A stretch of DNA of 38,476 bases from Actinomycetota bacterium. GTDB taxonomy: Bacteria > Actinomycetota > Acidimicrobiia > Actinomarinales > Actinomarinaceae. The translations under genes and the position numbers were made by a program. Of this stretch, positions 1,152 to 33,318 are shown piece by piece; the stretch's first letter is position 1, and every line of letters starts with the position of its first letter. The stretch lies in NCBI GenBank assembly GCA_027729925.1, contig JAQCEB010000005.1, positions 1 to 38,476 on the forward strand, given 5' to 3'. The notes under the pieces are model-generated. The model was not told the DNA's origin, searched no databases, and saw only the letters and a program-made list of their open reading frames with translations.

Positions 1152-3407
1152 TTATAATTTCTCCTTAGCTTTATTCGTTGCATCAACCATATTAGTTAAG
1201 CTTTCTTTAACTTCTGGCCAGCCTCTTGTTTTAAGACCACAATCTGGGTTAATCCAAATTTTATTCAAGTCTAAGCTATTTATGAGTTCTCCAACCCTAT
1301 TTTCCGCATCAACGCCTTGAAGTACAAGTGGTGAGTGAATGTCGTAAACTCCTGGACCGATAGCTCCTCTGTATTTTTCTTTTAAATTAGGATTTACAAG
1401 TTCCATACCGCTTCTTGAAGCTTCTATTGAAAGCACGTCAACATCTAATGCATTGATTGCATCTAAAATTTCATCAAATTCTGAGTAGCACATGTGTGAA
1501 TGAATTTGAGTAGTAGTTTCAACTCCCGAGGATGCAAGTTTGAAAGAATTTACTGCCCAATCTAAATATTCATCTTTATATTTTGAATTAAGTGGCAAGC
1601 CTTCTCTAATTGCTGGTTCATCGATTTGAATTATTTTTATATTATTTTTTTCAAGGTCAATTACTTCGTCTCTTAAAGCTAATCCAATTTGATAAGCAAC
1701 ATCTTTTTTAGAGATATCATCTCTATAAAAACTCCATTGTAGAATCGTTACTGGACCAGTTAACATTCCTTTCATATTCTTTTTAGTTAAGCTCTGAGCA
1801 AAAACTGACCAATCAACAGTCATTGATTTAGGTCTATGAACATCGCCAAATATAATCGGAGGTTTTACGCACCTACTGCCATAACTTTGGACCCAACCAA
1901 ATTTTGAAAATGCAAAGCCTTCTAGTAGTTCTCCAAAATATTCAACCATGTCATTTCTTTCAGCTTCACCATGAACTAAGACATCGATTCCTAAATTTTC
2001 TTGAAACTCAATAGTTTCAGAAATAATTTGTTTTAAGCCATCATTGTATTCATCAATAGAAATTTCTCCGGATTTAAATTGCTTTCTCAAATTTCTTGTT
2101 TTGAGAGTTTGAGGAAAAGATCCAATAGTTGTTGTTGGTAGCAAAGGTATATTTAACGCTTTGGATTGTTTTTCTAATCTAACTTCTCTATCTTCACTTC
2201 TAATAAAATCTTCATCGGATAATTCAGAAACTCTACTCCTAACACTACTTACAACTCTTCCAACTAGTGCTTTGTCGGCAGTTAATCTTTTGCTTTCATA
2301 TTCCATAATTTCTTTTAAATCATTATTATTTGTTAAAGATGAATTGAGGATTCTTAATTCATCTAGTTTTTCTTCAGCGAAAGATAAAATATTTTTTAAA
2401 TTGATATCAAGACCATCTTCATTTTCAAGACTATACGGTGTATGCAACATTGAACACGAACTAGAAATTGAAAAGTTATCAATTCCTAACCCAATTAAAT
2501 TAGAAATCTTCTCATCAAGATTACTTTTCCATATTGTTCTACCGTTTATTAGTCCTATCACAACGTGTTTTTTTAAGGAAATATTAACTATTTCATCTTG
2601 TGAGAAACCTTCATAACAAAGATCTAGATGTATAGACTCAATATTTGAATCTAATATTTCATCTAAAAAACCTTCATACTTTCCAAAATAACCTAAAAGA
2701 TGTATTTTCAAATTAGATTTTTGAATCAATAATTTAAGAGAACTAAAAGCATCATCATTTACCATATGATTTCCGACACCTACACAACCTTCGTCTAGTA
2801 AGACTTCTTTGAATCCAATTTCTTCAAGCATTCTAAATAACTCAAGATAGGCATTAACAATTTTTTGTAGTTTGTTATCGTCTATTCCTTTTTCTTTAGC
2901 TAGCGTAAGTAAAGTTGCTGGACCAATAATCTTAGGTCTGCAATTAAAATTCTTAGATTTTGCTAAATCTAATTCATATTTAAATCTATAAATAGTAGGT
3001 TGAAAATCAAGAGACCAATCAATTTCTGGGACTAGATAGTGATAATTTGTATCAAACCATTTGGTCATATCAAGTGGGGGTTCGTCTTTTTCATTAACCT
3101 TTCCACCTCTTGATGCTTTAAAATATGTTTCTAGATTTTCATGATTTGTATAACCAAATCGTTTTTGGGGAATTCCAAGATGAGTTACAGTGTCAAGAAC
3201 TTGATCATAAAATGAAAAATCTCCAGCTAAAACAGTATCTGCACCATTCTTAGATTGAGTTTCCCAATTATTAGTGATCAGATTGTCAGATACCTCAAAA
3301 ACATCTTTGAGCGTTGAATCCCCTCTCCAATACTTTTCTACAATCCACTTGTATTCTCTATTCTTTCCAACTCTTGGGTATCCAATAATATTTATTTTAT
3401 TCGTCAT
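1152..3407 (-). CDS. metE: Cobalamin-independent methionine synthase (5-methyltetrahydropteroyltriglutamate-homocysteine methyltransferase)
   Basis: 751 aa; N-terminal IIGYPRVGKNREYKW; Zn-site motifs HSHMCYSEF and NPDCGLKTRGW. Confidence 0.97.
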   Translation of the reverse strand: MTNKINIIGYPRVGKNREYKWIVEKYWRGDSTLKDVFEVSDNLITNNWETQSKNGADTVLAGDFSFYDQVLDTVTHLGIPQKRFGYTNHENLETYFKASRGGKVNEKDEPPLDMTKWFDTNYHYLVPEIDWSLDFQPTIYRFKYELDLAKSKNFNCRPKIIGPATLLTLAKEKGIDDNKLQKIVNAYLELFRMLEEIGFKEVLLDEGCVGVGNHMVNDDAFSSLKLLIQKSNLKIHLLGYFGKYEGFLDEILDSNIESIHLDLCYEGFSQDEIVNISLKKHVVIGLINGRTIWKSNLDEKISNLIGLGIDNFSISSSCSMLHTPYSLENEDGLDINLKNILSFAEEKLDELRILNSSLTNNNDLKEIMEYESKRLTADKALVGRVVSSVRSRVSELSDEDFIRSEDREVRLEKQSKALNIPLLPTTTIGSFPQTLKTRNLRKQFKSGEISIDEYNDGLKQIISETIEFQENLGIDVLVHGEAERNDMVEYFGELLEGFAFSKFGWVQSYGSRCVKPPIIFGDVHRPKSMTVDWSVFAQSLTKKNMKGMLTGPVTILQWSFYRDDISKKDVAYQIGLALRDEVIDLEKNNIKIIQIDEPAIREGLPLNSKYKDEYLDWAVNSFKLASSGVETTTQIHSHMCYSEFDEILDAINALDVDVLSIEASRSGMELVNPNLKEKYRGAIGPGVYDIHSPLVLQGVDAENRVGELINSLDLNKIWINPDCGLKTRGWPEVKESLTNMVDATNKAKEKL

Positions 3408-3418
3408 TTAGCCTTCTT

Positions 3419-4288
3419 TCATTTTTTAAATTTTTCATCTAGATTTTTATAAATTTCTTTAAAGGCTTTATATCTATTAAGTGTATAAAAATGAAGTCCA
3501 TCTACATTTTCTTCAATGAGTTCATTACACATTTCTGTTATATATTTAATTCCAAAAGATCTTTCTTGATCTTTTGAATTACATTGTTGAAAACCTTCAT
3601 GTAGCTTTTTAGGTAGTTTTATATCGCAAATTTTTGCAAATCTGATAGCTTGCTCATAACTTATTAAGGGCATAATGCCTGCATAGGTTGGAACGTAATT
3701 ATCAAGAACTTGTATTTTCTTTCTAAAATTTAAATATTCTTGAGAGTCAAAAAATAATTGAGTTGCTGAAAACAAACCTCCTTGGTCGACTTTTATTTTA
3801 TATGTTGAAATCGTTTGATAAATATCATCATCTTCAGGATGGCCTGTGGGAAAAGTTCCAAAACCTATTTTATCAATATTATTTTGTTTTAAATATGCAA
3901 TTAAATCACTTGCATATTCAAATTCACTATTCGTGCTTTCTAAATCATCAATATCCATTAAAAATTCATCTCTCGGACAATCTCCCCTTACAACCAAAAA
4001 TGAATCAATTCTATTTTCTAAATATGTATTAATAATTTTATCTACATCAGTTTTGTCTTTATCGCAACTAGTAATGTGAGCAACTATCTCTGAACGAGAA
4101 AATTTCCTAAAAATTTCAACAGCCCTAATTATTTCTCTATTCTTAGAAAATCCTGCACCATCAGTAAAGGATACAAATGCGGGATCAAAATCTGATAATT
4201 CTATTACTGATTTTTCAAATGATTCATACTCCCTCTCATTTCTAGGAGGGAAAAACTCAAATGATAACTCTAAATTTCTTCCAAACAT
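3419..4288 (-). CDS. metF: Methylenetetrahydrofolate reductase
   Basis: 289 aa; EFFPP, VRGDCPRDE, FPTGHPE and ATQLFFD motifs; first gene of the metF-metE-metK run. Confidence 0.9.
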   Translation of the reverse strand: MFGRNLELSFEFFPPRNEREYESFEKSVIELSDFDPAFVSFTDGAGFSKNREIIRAVEIFRKFSRSEIVAHITSCDKDKTDVDKIINTYLENRIDSFLVVRGDCPRDEFLMDIDDLESTNSEFEYASDLIAYLKQNNIDKIGFGTFPTGHPEDDDIYQTISTYKIKVDQGGLFSATQLFFDSQEYLNFRKKIQVLDNYVPTYAGIMPLISYEQAIRFAKICDIKLPKKLHEGFQQCNSKDQERSFGIKYITEMCNELIEENVDGLHFYTLNRYKAFKEIYKNLDEKFKK

Positions 4289-4299
4289 AATTTAAACTC

Positions 4300-4393
4300 A
4301 TTTTGAAGAAAGGCTATTTTTTGCAGAATGCCACATTAACTTAGCACCTTGGATAGCCTTCCAGGTTGCTGAGGACTTAACCTCTCAAAATGT
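4300..4393 (-). promoter_or_regulatory. SAM riboswitch, SAM-I/SAM-IV superfamily-like, upstream of metF
   Basis: Reverse-complement core CAGCAACCTGGAAGGCTATCCAAGGTGCTAA matches the conserved GCAACCU...AGGUGCUAA core. P1 ATTTTGA(4392-4386)/TCAAAAT(4306-4300); P2 GAGG-TTAAGT-CCTC (4384-4371); the P3 loop AGGCTAT (4359-4353) is perfectly complementary to downstream ATAGCCT (4317-4311), giving a pseudoknot. Confidence 0.85.
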
Positions 4394-4459
4394 AATTTAA
4401 TATTAGTTACCTAAATTAATTATTCAATTTACATAAATAATTATTTCTTTTACTAATCT

Positions 4460-31347: not shown

Positions 31348-32232
31348 CTAATTAATTGGGTTAATTATTTTTAACTTTTTGAGGTATACATATATATATG
31401 TAATCCATAAAATATCTGCGGTTGCTAAATGTAGGATGCTGAGTGGAAGCACAATATTAGATAATACATTTAATATTCCTAAAGAAACTGAAAATAATAC
31501 TAAGTAAAATAATGGTTTTGTATTGATTCCAAAAGTTTTATGGATTTTTTTGCTCTGAACTACAAGTACATATGATAAAAACATTGAAAAAATTGGATGC
31601 AAAATTCTAAGTCTTGTGAGAAGTTCTGATGAACGATCAAAATCAGCAACTAGACCTTGAGTGAAAGACTCACTTGGATACAATACATCAGATAGTGCTG
31701 CGATTGAACCTGTTGCACCAGTCAAAAAAAACAAAATTCCTACAAGTTTAAAATTTAAATCAAAAAATCCATCTAAATTTTTTAAATCGAACTTTAAAAC
31801 AGCAAATAGAGTTGCATAACAGCCAAGTAAACCAAATGTGTTAACCAGATGTATTGGAACAGCTATAATCCTAGGGACTGAGCTGTTCATGCCGACCCAT
31901 TCATATAAAACAATTACTGCACCAATAGCAGCTTCTAGTAAAACAAAAAATGTTAATAGAACAATAATTTTTCTAATTAAATTTTGTTTAGGTAGATTAA
32001 AAGTTTTAGTAAATAAAATTAGTGTAATGATAAGTAGAAACCCGCTTATTGATCTATGTAGAAACTCAATAATCTCTGAAGTATCTTGAAGATTAGGAAT
32101 AATTTTTCCATTACATTTTGGCCAAGTTGAACCACAACCATCTCCAGAGCCAGTTGCACGAACAAATGCTCCAGCCAAAATTGAAACTATTGAAACAAAT
32201 AACCCTAATTTAACTAAAAAATAATTTTTCAA
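31348..32232 (-). CDS. ctaA: Heme A synthase (COX15/CtaA family)
   Basis: 294 aa; GAFVRATGSGDGCGSTWPKCNGKIIP, EFLHRSISG, later His-containing TM segments. Confidence 0.9.
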   Translation of the reverse strand: MKNYFLVKLGLFVSIVSILAGAFVRATGSGDGCGSTWPKCNGKIIPNLQDTSEIIEFLHRSISGFLLIITLILFTKTFNLPKQNLIRKIIVLLTFFVLLEAAIGAVIVLYEWVGMNSSVPRIIAVPIHLVNTFGLLGCYATLFAVLKFDLKNLDGFFDLNFKLVGILFFLTGATGSIAALSDVLYPSESFTQGLVADFDRSSELLTRLRILHPIFSMFLSYVLVVQSKKIHKTFGINTKPLFYLVLFSVSLGILNVLSNIVLPLSILHLATADILWITYIYVYLKKLKIINPIN

Positions 32233-32819
32233 AATAAAGCATCAATAATAAATACGACTGAATCCCAAAATAAGCTAAAAGATGTAACTATTATTACTAA
32301 AAACAAACCTAGCATTGCAAAAGTCTTAATATTTCTTGTAAAATAAAAGCCAATTTGGTTAGTGTCATATATATAGGGCATTTCTTTGTCTTTTAAACGC
32401 ATAATTTCTGATGGTTGACTTTGTTCCAAAGAAATAAATGTATCATCAATTTGATTTTCATAATTTTCACTTGATTTATTTAAGGTAGGGTTTTTTCTTT
32501 TAAACGAAGTTCTTACTCGGTCAAGTTTTGTATTTTTTAGATCAATTTTTTCTTTATTAACTTTAAATATGCTTTCCTCATAATTTCTATTTTGAACTTT
32601 ATTTTCAAAATTATTTTCGAAATTTTTTAATGATTTTGATATTTCTGTTCCTAAAAGACCTTCAAGAGCATTCAATACTTTGGAATCAGTAGGAAAACTA
32701 AGACCCGATTCCCATTTTTTAACTTCTTTTTGGTTAACTCCAGTAAATGAAGCTATTTGCTTATTAGACAAACCACGTTCATTTTTTAAATTGGTAAAAA
32801 TTTTACTAAAGTTATTCAT
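32229..32819 (-). CDS. XRE-type HTH protein with a C-terminal transmembrane segment
   Basis: 196 aa; LKNERGLSNKQIASFTGVNQKEVKKWESGLSFPTDSKVLNALEGLLG HTH; C-terminal hydrophobic helix AMLGLFLVIIVTSFSLFW. Confidence 0.7.
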   Translation of the reverse strand: MNNFSKIFTNLKNERGLSNKQIASFTGVNQKEVKKWESGLSFPTDSKVLNALEGLLGTEISKSLKNFENNFENKVQNRNYEESIFKVNKEKIDLKNTKLDRVRTSFKRKNPTLNKSSENYENQIDDTFISLEQSQPSEIMRLKDKEMPYIYDTNQIGFYFTRNIKTFAMLGLFLVIIVTSFSLFWDSVVFIIDALF

Positions 32820-32870: not shown

Positions 32871-32962
32871 GGAGGTGAATGAGCGCCTGGTGGGCTCCAC
32901 AGTCTTCAAAACTGTAGAAAGGTGTAATAATCTTTGGCAGGTTCGATTCCTGTCCACCTCCG
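32871..32962 (+). tRNA. selC: tRNA-Sec (anticodon TCA)
   Basis: GGAGGTGA...CCACCTCC acceptor arm (7 pairs plus an A-C at position 8); anticodon stem-loop ACAGT-CTTCAAA-ACTGT (TCA anticodon); extended D stem with TGGT loop; long variable arm AAAG-GTGTAATAAT-CTTT; T arm GCAGG-TTCGATT-CCTGT; 92 nt without CCA, same layout as E. coli selC. Confidence 0.93.
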
Positions 32963-32997
32963 CTACTATATACTTTTTTAATGATTAATATTAAAAA

Positions 32998-33318
32998 ATG
33001 GACTCAAAAAAAGATATTCTTGAAAAAATAAATTTTGCACCAGCAGGTTTCAAAGTTTCACCAGGATGGCGTGTTGGACATTTGAAAGAAGAAACTATAA
33101 CAAAATCGGGTTTACTTGTTCCAGCAGGTAGTGAAAAAACTTCAGAAGCATTACCACTTATAGACGTAGATAGTGGTAAACAGTTCTGGGCGGTTGCAAG
33201 CGGTGCTTGGAAATTTATTTGGCCACCAAGTGGGAAAGTTGTATTGGCTGTTAGAGAATCTCAAATCATTGCTGAAGAAGAAGTTATTTCATCTCCTGAT
33301 AACGGAAACTATTTATAA
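32998..33318 (+). CDS. Small protein of unknown function with weak GroES-like features
   Basis: 106 aa; ITKSGLLVPAGSEKTSEA and terminal GKVVLAVRESQIIAEEE resemble GroES segments; the middle is divergent. In line between selC and hflX. Confidence 0.55.
   Translation: MDSKKDILEKINFAPAGFKVSPGWRVGHLKEETITKSGLLVPAGSEKTSEALPLIDVDSGKQFWAVASGAWKFIWPPSGKVVLAVRESQIIAEEEVISSPDNGNYL

Follow-up and report, generated by a model that had tools for sequence, protein, structure and literature searches.

The selC locus and its neighbourhood

The window, meaning the whole stretch of 38,476 nucleotides that was analysed, has a GC content of 31% and belongs to a draft genome (G000) of 915,422 bases (0.92 Mb) in 54 contigs, estimated to be 88% complete with 0.34% contamination. 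Members of 'Ca. Actinomarinales' are described with ~32.5% GC and genomes of ~1.1 Mb (PMC7771536), and class, GC, size and gene content make 'Candidatus Actinomarina' the most likely lineage. ARAGORN reports a tRNA-SeC(tca) at 32871-32963 as the sole tRNA gene of the window. The locus is composed of the following features:

32229..32819, minus strand: helix-turn-helix protein (Pfam HTH_3/HTH_19), divergent from selC
32871..32962, plus strand: tRNA-Sec gene (selC), from ARAGORN, Rfam RF01852 and the minimum free energy (MFE) cloverleaf; 91 nt plus the discriminator G
32871..32877, plus strand: 5' strand of the acceptor stem, 7 bp with 32955-32961 in the fold; A32878 lies opposite C32954
32881..32897, plus strand: D arm, 4+2 bp with a bulged G at 32885 (about position 13a) and a UGGU loop, from the fold
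32906..32908, plus strand: anticodon TCA (UCA) within CTTCAAA, reading UGA, from the sequence and ARAGORN
32918..32935, plus strand: long variable arm with a 6-bp stem, from the fold
32936..32954, plus strand: T arm, with a 6-bp stem if G32936 pairs with C32954, from the MFE fold
32998..33318, plus strand: 106-aa protein, between selC and hflX

The first-pass annotation was right to call a bacterial tRNA-Sec at 32871-32962: the element is a genuine one. It matches RF01852 over 32871-32961 with 73.5 bits (E 2e-13) against a gathering threshold of 47, where a low model score had been named as the outcome that would speak against the call, and this is the single match over the cut-off in the whole draft genome. 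The MFE fold is a cloverleaf of -36.4 kcal/mol (z -4.0), and none of 200 shuffled sequences was equally stable. The UCA anticodon, the discriminator G73 (G32962) and the long variable arm by which a tRNA-Sec is recognized are all there, along with a D stem of 6 bp closed by a 4-nt UGGU loop and carrying one bulged G, and an acceptor plus T branch of 13 bp in total, best formed as 7/6 since 8/5 requires an A-C mismatch. The 3' CCA is absent from the gene. The anticodon, the variable arm and the D stem (GAGC-g-CC/GG-GCTC, with the bulge now placed at 32885) had been described correctly from the letters alone.

The helix-turn-helix gene is a conserved neighbour of selC in the genus by synteny, and no evidence for a role in the Sec system was found for it. 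The 106-aa protein has no Pfam or NCBIfam match and resembles a GroES-type protein by eye only; as a candidate Sec-linked gene it was rejected, and we place it outside the Sec system because only a subset of the genus carries it. Elsewhere in the window, a SAM-I/IV riboswitch (RF01725, 64.4 bits) lies at 4307-4398 on the minus strand, upstream of a methionine/SAM operon on the same strand that encodes MTHFR (3419-4288), a cobalamin-independent methionine synthase (1152-3407) and SAM synthetase (63-1151).

Structure of the tRNA-Sec among relatives

The panel of relatives comprises 42 sampled genomes of the genus (drafts of 0.6-1.1 Mb) and other genomes of the class. The D-arm sequence GAGCGCCTGGTGGGCTC, bulge included, is identical in every genus member read, and the bulge occupies the same place in most members of the class outside the genus. 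One of the latter, G090, has the same D arm, which suggests that the tRNA-Sec may have been inherited vertically; outside the genus its presence is patchy (33 of 57 other class genomes). A bulge of this kind has a precedent, since one at position 13a was reported for Clostridiales in passages of the Secmarker authors' paper (PMC5330540).

As for the branch, none of the 27 distinct relatives has lost any of the 7 acceptor pairs, and 25 of these 27 tRNA-Sec sequences have A or U opposite a C at position 8. The G directly 5' of the T stem can form an outer sixth pair with a C in all 27; where the 3' side has 13 nt (21 sequences), this C is the very one of the position-8 mismatch. Since the MFE fold picks the G32936-C32954 pair and thereby removes the A8-C mismatch, the 13-bp branch is probably retained as 7/6 rather than 8/5 in this folding model. 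The A-C eighth acceptor position of the first-pass annotation is right, with A32878 standing opposite C32954; the one refinement is that C32954 pairs better with G32936. Of the "lineage quirks" suspected there, the bulge and the position-8 feature are indeed lineage-wide, while the mismatch itself vanishes in the 7/6 fold. Judged by comparison of sequences, both are genus-wide features of the lineage and not defects.

Passages of PMC5330540 contain no 7/6 tRNA-Sec, which is no proof of novelty in the literature. Compared with the bulged tRNA-Sec of Clostridiales and the 7/5 types, including Rubrobacter, in those passages, the gene shares a bulge after the fourth D-stem pair and a 7-bp acceptor stem, whereas its T loop and discriminator are separated by 13 nt (7/6), against 12 in the 7/5 types. 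Six other class members (L057, L058, L059, L062, L063 and L064) have 12 nt there and fit the 7/5 type of Rubrobacter and others, as far as passages of that source describe it; other tRNA-Sec genes of the class have 13 nt (7/6 or a mismatched 8/5), so that the branch architecture switches within one class.

Sec machinery, UGA-containing genes and SECIS hairpins

A selC gene implies selA, selB and selD, which the first-pass annotation had expected elsewhere in the genome together with at least one gene with an in-frame UGA; all three and, in fact, three such genes were found. In profile searches, selA on contig C15 scored 366.8 bits and selD on contig C37 362.6 bits, both above the curated cut-offs. 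selB directly follows selA in tandem; its best match, TIGR00475, reaches 219.6 bits, 23 below the curated NCBIfam cut-off of 242.25. We read this low score as divergence and not as failure, because the place beside selA and the domains fit: the 555-aa SelB combines a GTPase domain of the EF-Tu type with a SelB-wing_3 winged helix at its C terminus, the latter over its cut-off. A WhiB-like actinobacterial protein adjoins selB (by eye). At the gene level, the genome holds what marks the Sec-decoding trait: selA and selD over cut-off, a selB with the C-terminal winged helix although below its own TIGR00475 cut-off, and at least one in-frame UGA gene with a SECIS hairpin. The selenouridine synthase selU/ybbB (TIGR03167) had zero matches in this 88%-complete genome, so Sec appears to be the sole use of selenophosphate. 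A search for SelA in named genomes returned only a distant Lachnospiraceae locus (40% identity), which is uninformative for kinship.

Two of the UGA-containing genes share contig C37, separated by about 30 kb, an arrangement also seen in many siblings:

G000:C37:20270-21181: selD, one in-frame TGA
G000:C37:50290-50505: selW-like gene, one in-frame TGA, CxxU

The TGA of selD falls at the catalytic position (SHGSG-U-ACKLS here, SHGAG-C-ACKLS in class relatives), and the second gene encodes a SelT/SelW/SelH-family protein with the CxxU motif EFCVV-U-NYTPRAV. The third, a thioredoxin-like protein of 166 aa on contig C16 with a UxxC motif (WADY-U-SIC), was found de novo by a read-through scan; its N terminus is hydrophobic and contains Cys, and from this signal-like sequence the protein looks like an exported one. 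If UGA is read as a stop, only 10 codons remain of SelW, 12 of SelD and 76 of the thioredoxin-like protein, in line with the earlier remark on standard ORF callers; default gene calling would truncate all three.

The scan covered ~41% of the genome and scored candidates by codon usage, so the three genes are a lower bound for the selenoproteome. Its top-scoring candidate, a nitroreductase at L141:9814, was rejected: at L141:9740-10434 (G000:C37) frame 2 reads MDVFEALYTTRAMR before the break and frame 0 follows, a frameshift due to a sequencing error or a pseudogene, and a trap for read-through scans. Most remaining top candidates resemble upstream in-frame extensions of ordinary starts. Sec peroxiredoxins were sought with PF00578, and none of the three matches carries a UGA; this search was not exhaustive, having missed the thioredoxin-like protein.

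Downstream of the UGA codons lie compact hairpins. Bacterial SECIS elements lie 16-37 nt away from the UGA, and their loop has a G with G/U after it (PMC13188914), a pattern that the SelW, thioredoxin-like and SelD hairpins fit. The SelW element has a 6-bp stem and an AGUUA loop 17 nt after the UGA; that of the thioredoxin-like gene has a 6-bp stem and an AGUUA or AGUUG loop 16 nt after it. The two proteins and their stem sequences are unrelated, yet hairpin geometry and loop (AGUUR) are identical. In a joint alignment of both, 150 of 150 cells are paired and 44 are changed on both sides, and the covariation score exceeds that of 500 out of 500 shuffles and of all slides. A covariance model built from these hairpins matches just those two places genome-wide, the next match having E ~4; since the model was trained on both, their E-values hold by construction, and the informative part is the absence of others. 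A loose hairpin rule was passed by 14 of 14 SelW and 23 of 25 thioredoxin-like sequences, compared with 13 of 59 true TGA stops; the two exceptions (L170 and L173) were mis-anchored, and the correct site shows the AGGAGUUGCCU hairpin top in both. In SelD, a GUU/GUC hairpin at +33 occurs in genus and class and has undergone a compensatory change from UCAG/CUGA to UCAA/UUGA (G-C to A-U). The SelW hairpins range from -6.6 to -9.0 kcal/mol, straddling the published limit of -7.5, and their conservation may partly reflect protein constraint because they lie within conserved codons.

These hairpins also bear on whether the tRNA could be a general UGA suppressor, or UGA reassigned genome-wide, either of which would go along with a UCA anticodon and three conserved frames interrupted by UGA. 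Yet UGA ends 53 of the 221 ORFs of at least 250 codons in the 41% genome sample and hence remains a stop codon; the sites read through sit at redox or catalytic Cys positions; those of SelW and the thioredoxin-like gene are followed by a specific hairpin with just two places in the genome; and selA, selB and selD are present. We consider such a suppressor or reassignment exceedingly improbable.

The set of genes found here corresponds to the bacterial Sec system of the E. coli type: the same four genes selA, selB, selC and selD, a C-terminal winged helix in SelB, SECIS elements within the coding region just 3' of the UGA, and a tRNA with UCA anticodon, G73 and 13-bp acceptor plus T branch. It differs from it in that selC is unlinked from selAB and selD, in the D-stem bulge and the probable 7/6 instead of 8/5 branch, and in the very short SECIS (6-bp stem, AGUUR loop).

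Conservation and Sec decoding in a streamlined marine genus

Throughout the genus, the tRNA-Sec is present in 40 of 42 genomes, and the UGA is kept in every genome with a match: 40/40 for SelD, 37/37 for SelW and 29/29 for the thioredoxin-like gene (35 searched). Where a match is missing, the genome is mostly a clearly incomplete one. Between species, changes concentrate at third codon positions, both upstream and downstream of the UGA, which is what translation through it would predict. Among class relatives, G068 (L121, L078; 95% complete) combines a TGA-interrupted SelW frame with a SelD of the Cys type and, under strict filters, yields no tRNA-Sec match, and G072 has a SelD-TGA and no tRNA match; both could be cases of a missed tRNA or of loss in progress.

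Sec decoding is costly and frequently lost. It could be argued, then, that this selC is a relict, a tRNA that has outlived Sec decoding or belongs to a decaying pathway. Genome streamlining removes expensive traits; a 2026 review (PMC13188914) states that selenoproteins are seldom kept by aerobic bacteria; and the tRNA itself shows both a bulge and a mismatch. The test that the first-pass annotation had set for such a relict, a selC without selA, selB and selD, came out negative, since the full set is present together with three UGA genes; moreover, the UGA is kept in every genus copy, and neither the bulge nor the position-8 feature varies among the genus members. A relict has, in our view, a negligible probability. 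The same holds for a binning contamination of the window or of the selAB contig that would make the co-occurrence accidental. The fragmented state of the draft (54 contigs) and the small size of C15 (5.6 kb) would allow it, but the neighbours of the tRNA-Sec are the same in about 30 sibling loci, each of tRNA-Sec, SelD-UGA and SelW-UGA recurs in 37-40 of the 42 genus genomes, the estimated contamination is only 0.34%, and the protein adjoining selB is WhiB-like and actinobacterial.

With the tRNA, selA, selB, selD, three UGA-bearing genes, genus-wide UGA conservation and covarying SECIS hairpins all documented at the sequence level, we consider it nearly certain (probability about 0.97) that the element serves as selC in an intact, functioning bacterial Sec system, whose host is a streamlined marine actinobacterium and most likely a 'Candidatus Actinomarina'. 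By established knowledge of such systems, SerRS would charge the tRNA-Sec with serine, SelA would turn the seryl-tRNA to Sec using selenophosphate made by SelD, and SelB, binding the hairpin, would bring Sec-tRNA to UGA codons with a hairpin downstream, where Sec would be inserted. The predicted products are SelD itself, the SelW-like protein and the exported-looking thioredoxin-like protein (WADYUxxC).

Sec decoding as such is well known; the finding here is that an aerobic, extremely streamlined genus of the surface ocean has it fixed, alongside compact SECIS elements and a tRNA-Sec that is probably of the 7/6 form. PMC7771536, the principal genome study of the presumed lineage, contains neither "seleno-" nor selenium, and a search confined to literature outside subscription found no paper that has 'Actinomarina' and 'selenocysteine' together. 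Because Sec is fixed in nearly every sampled genome of a very reduced, free-living aerobic ocean lineage, we argue that selenium gives it a steady advantage.

Tentatively, and with more doubt than confidence, we suggest that the genus could be a major cell source of the selenoproteins seen in surface-ocean metagenomes for two decades. It would have kept a minimal selenoproteome (SelD, SelW-like, Trx-like UxxC and possibly a few others), together with a tRNA-Sec of the 7/6 form and a SECIS reduced to 6 bp and an AGUUR loop, despite extreme streamlining, because Sec would repay its cost in the redox chemistry of aerobic life in sunlit water. The three largest selenoprotein families of the Global Ocean Sampling survey were SelW-like (427 sequences), SelD (357) and the family named Trx-like 1 (321). 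The text of the survey is without any 'actino', and the link of its sequences to the genus is a hypothetical one; the three families identified here have the same motifs as those three, and the cells of this genus are candidate hosts of the selenoproteins that dominate in the sea.
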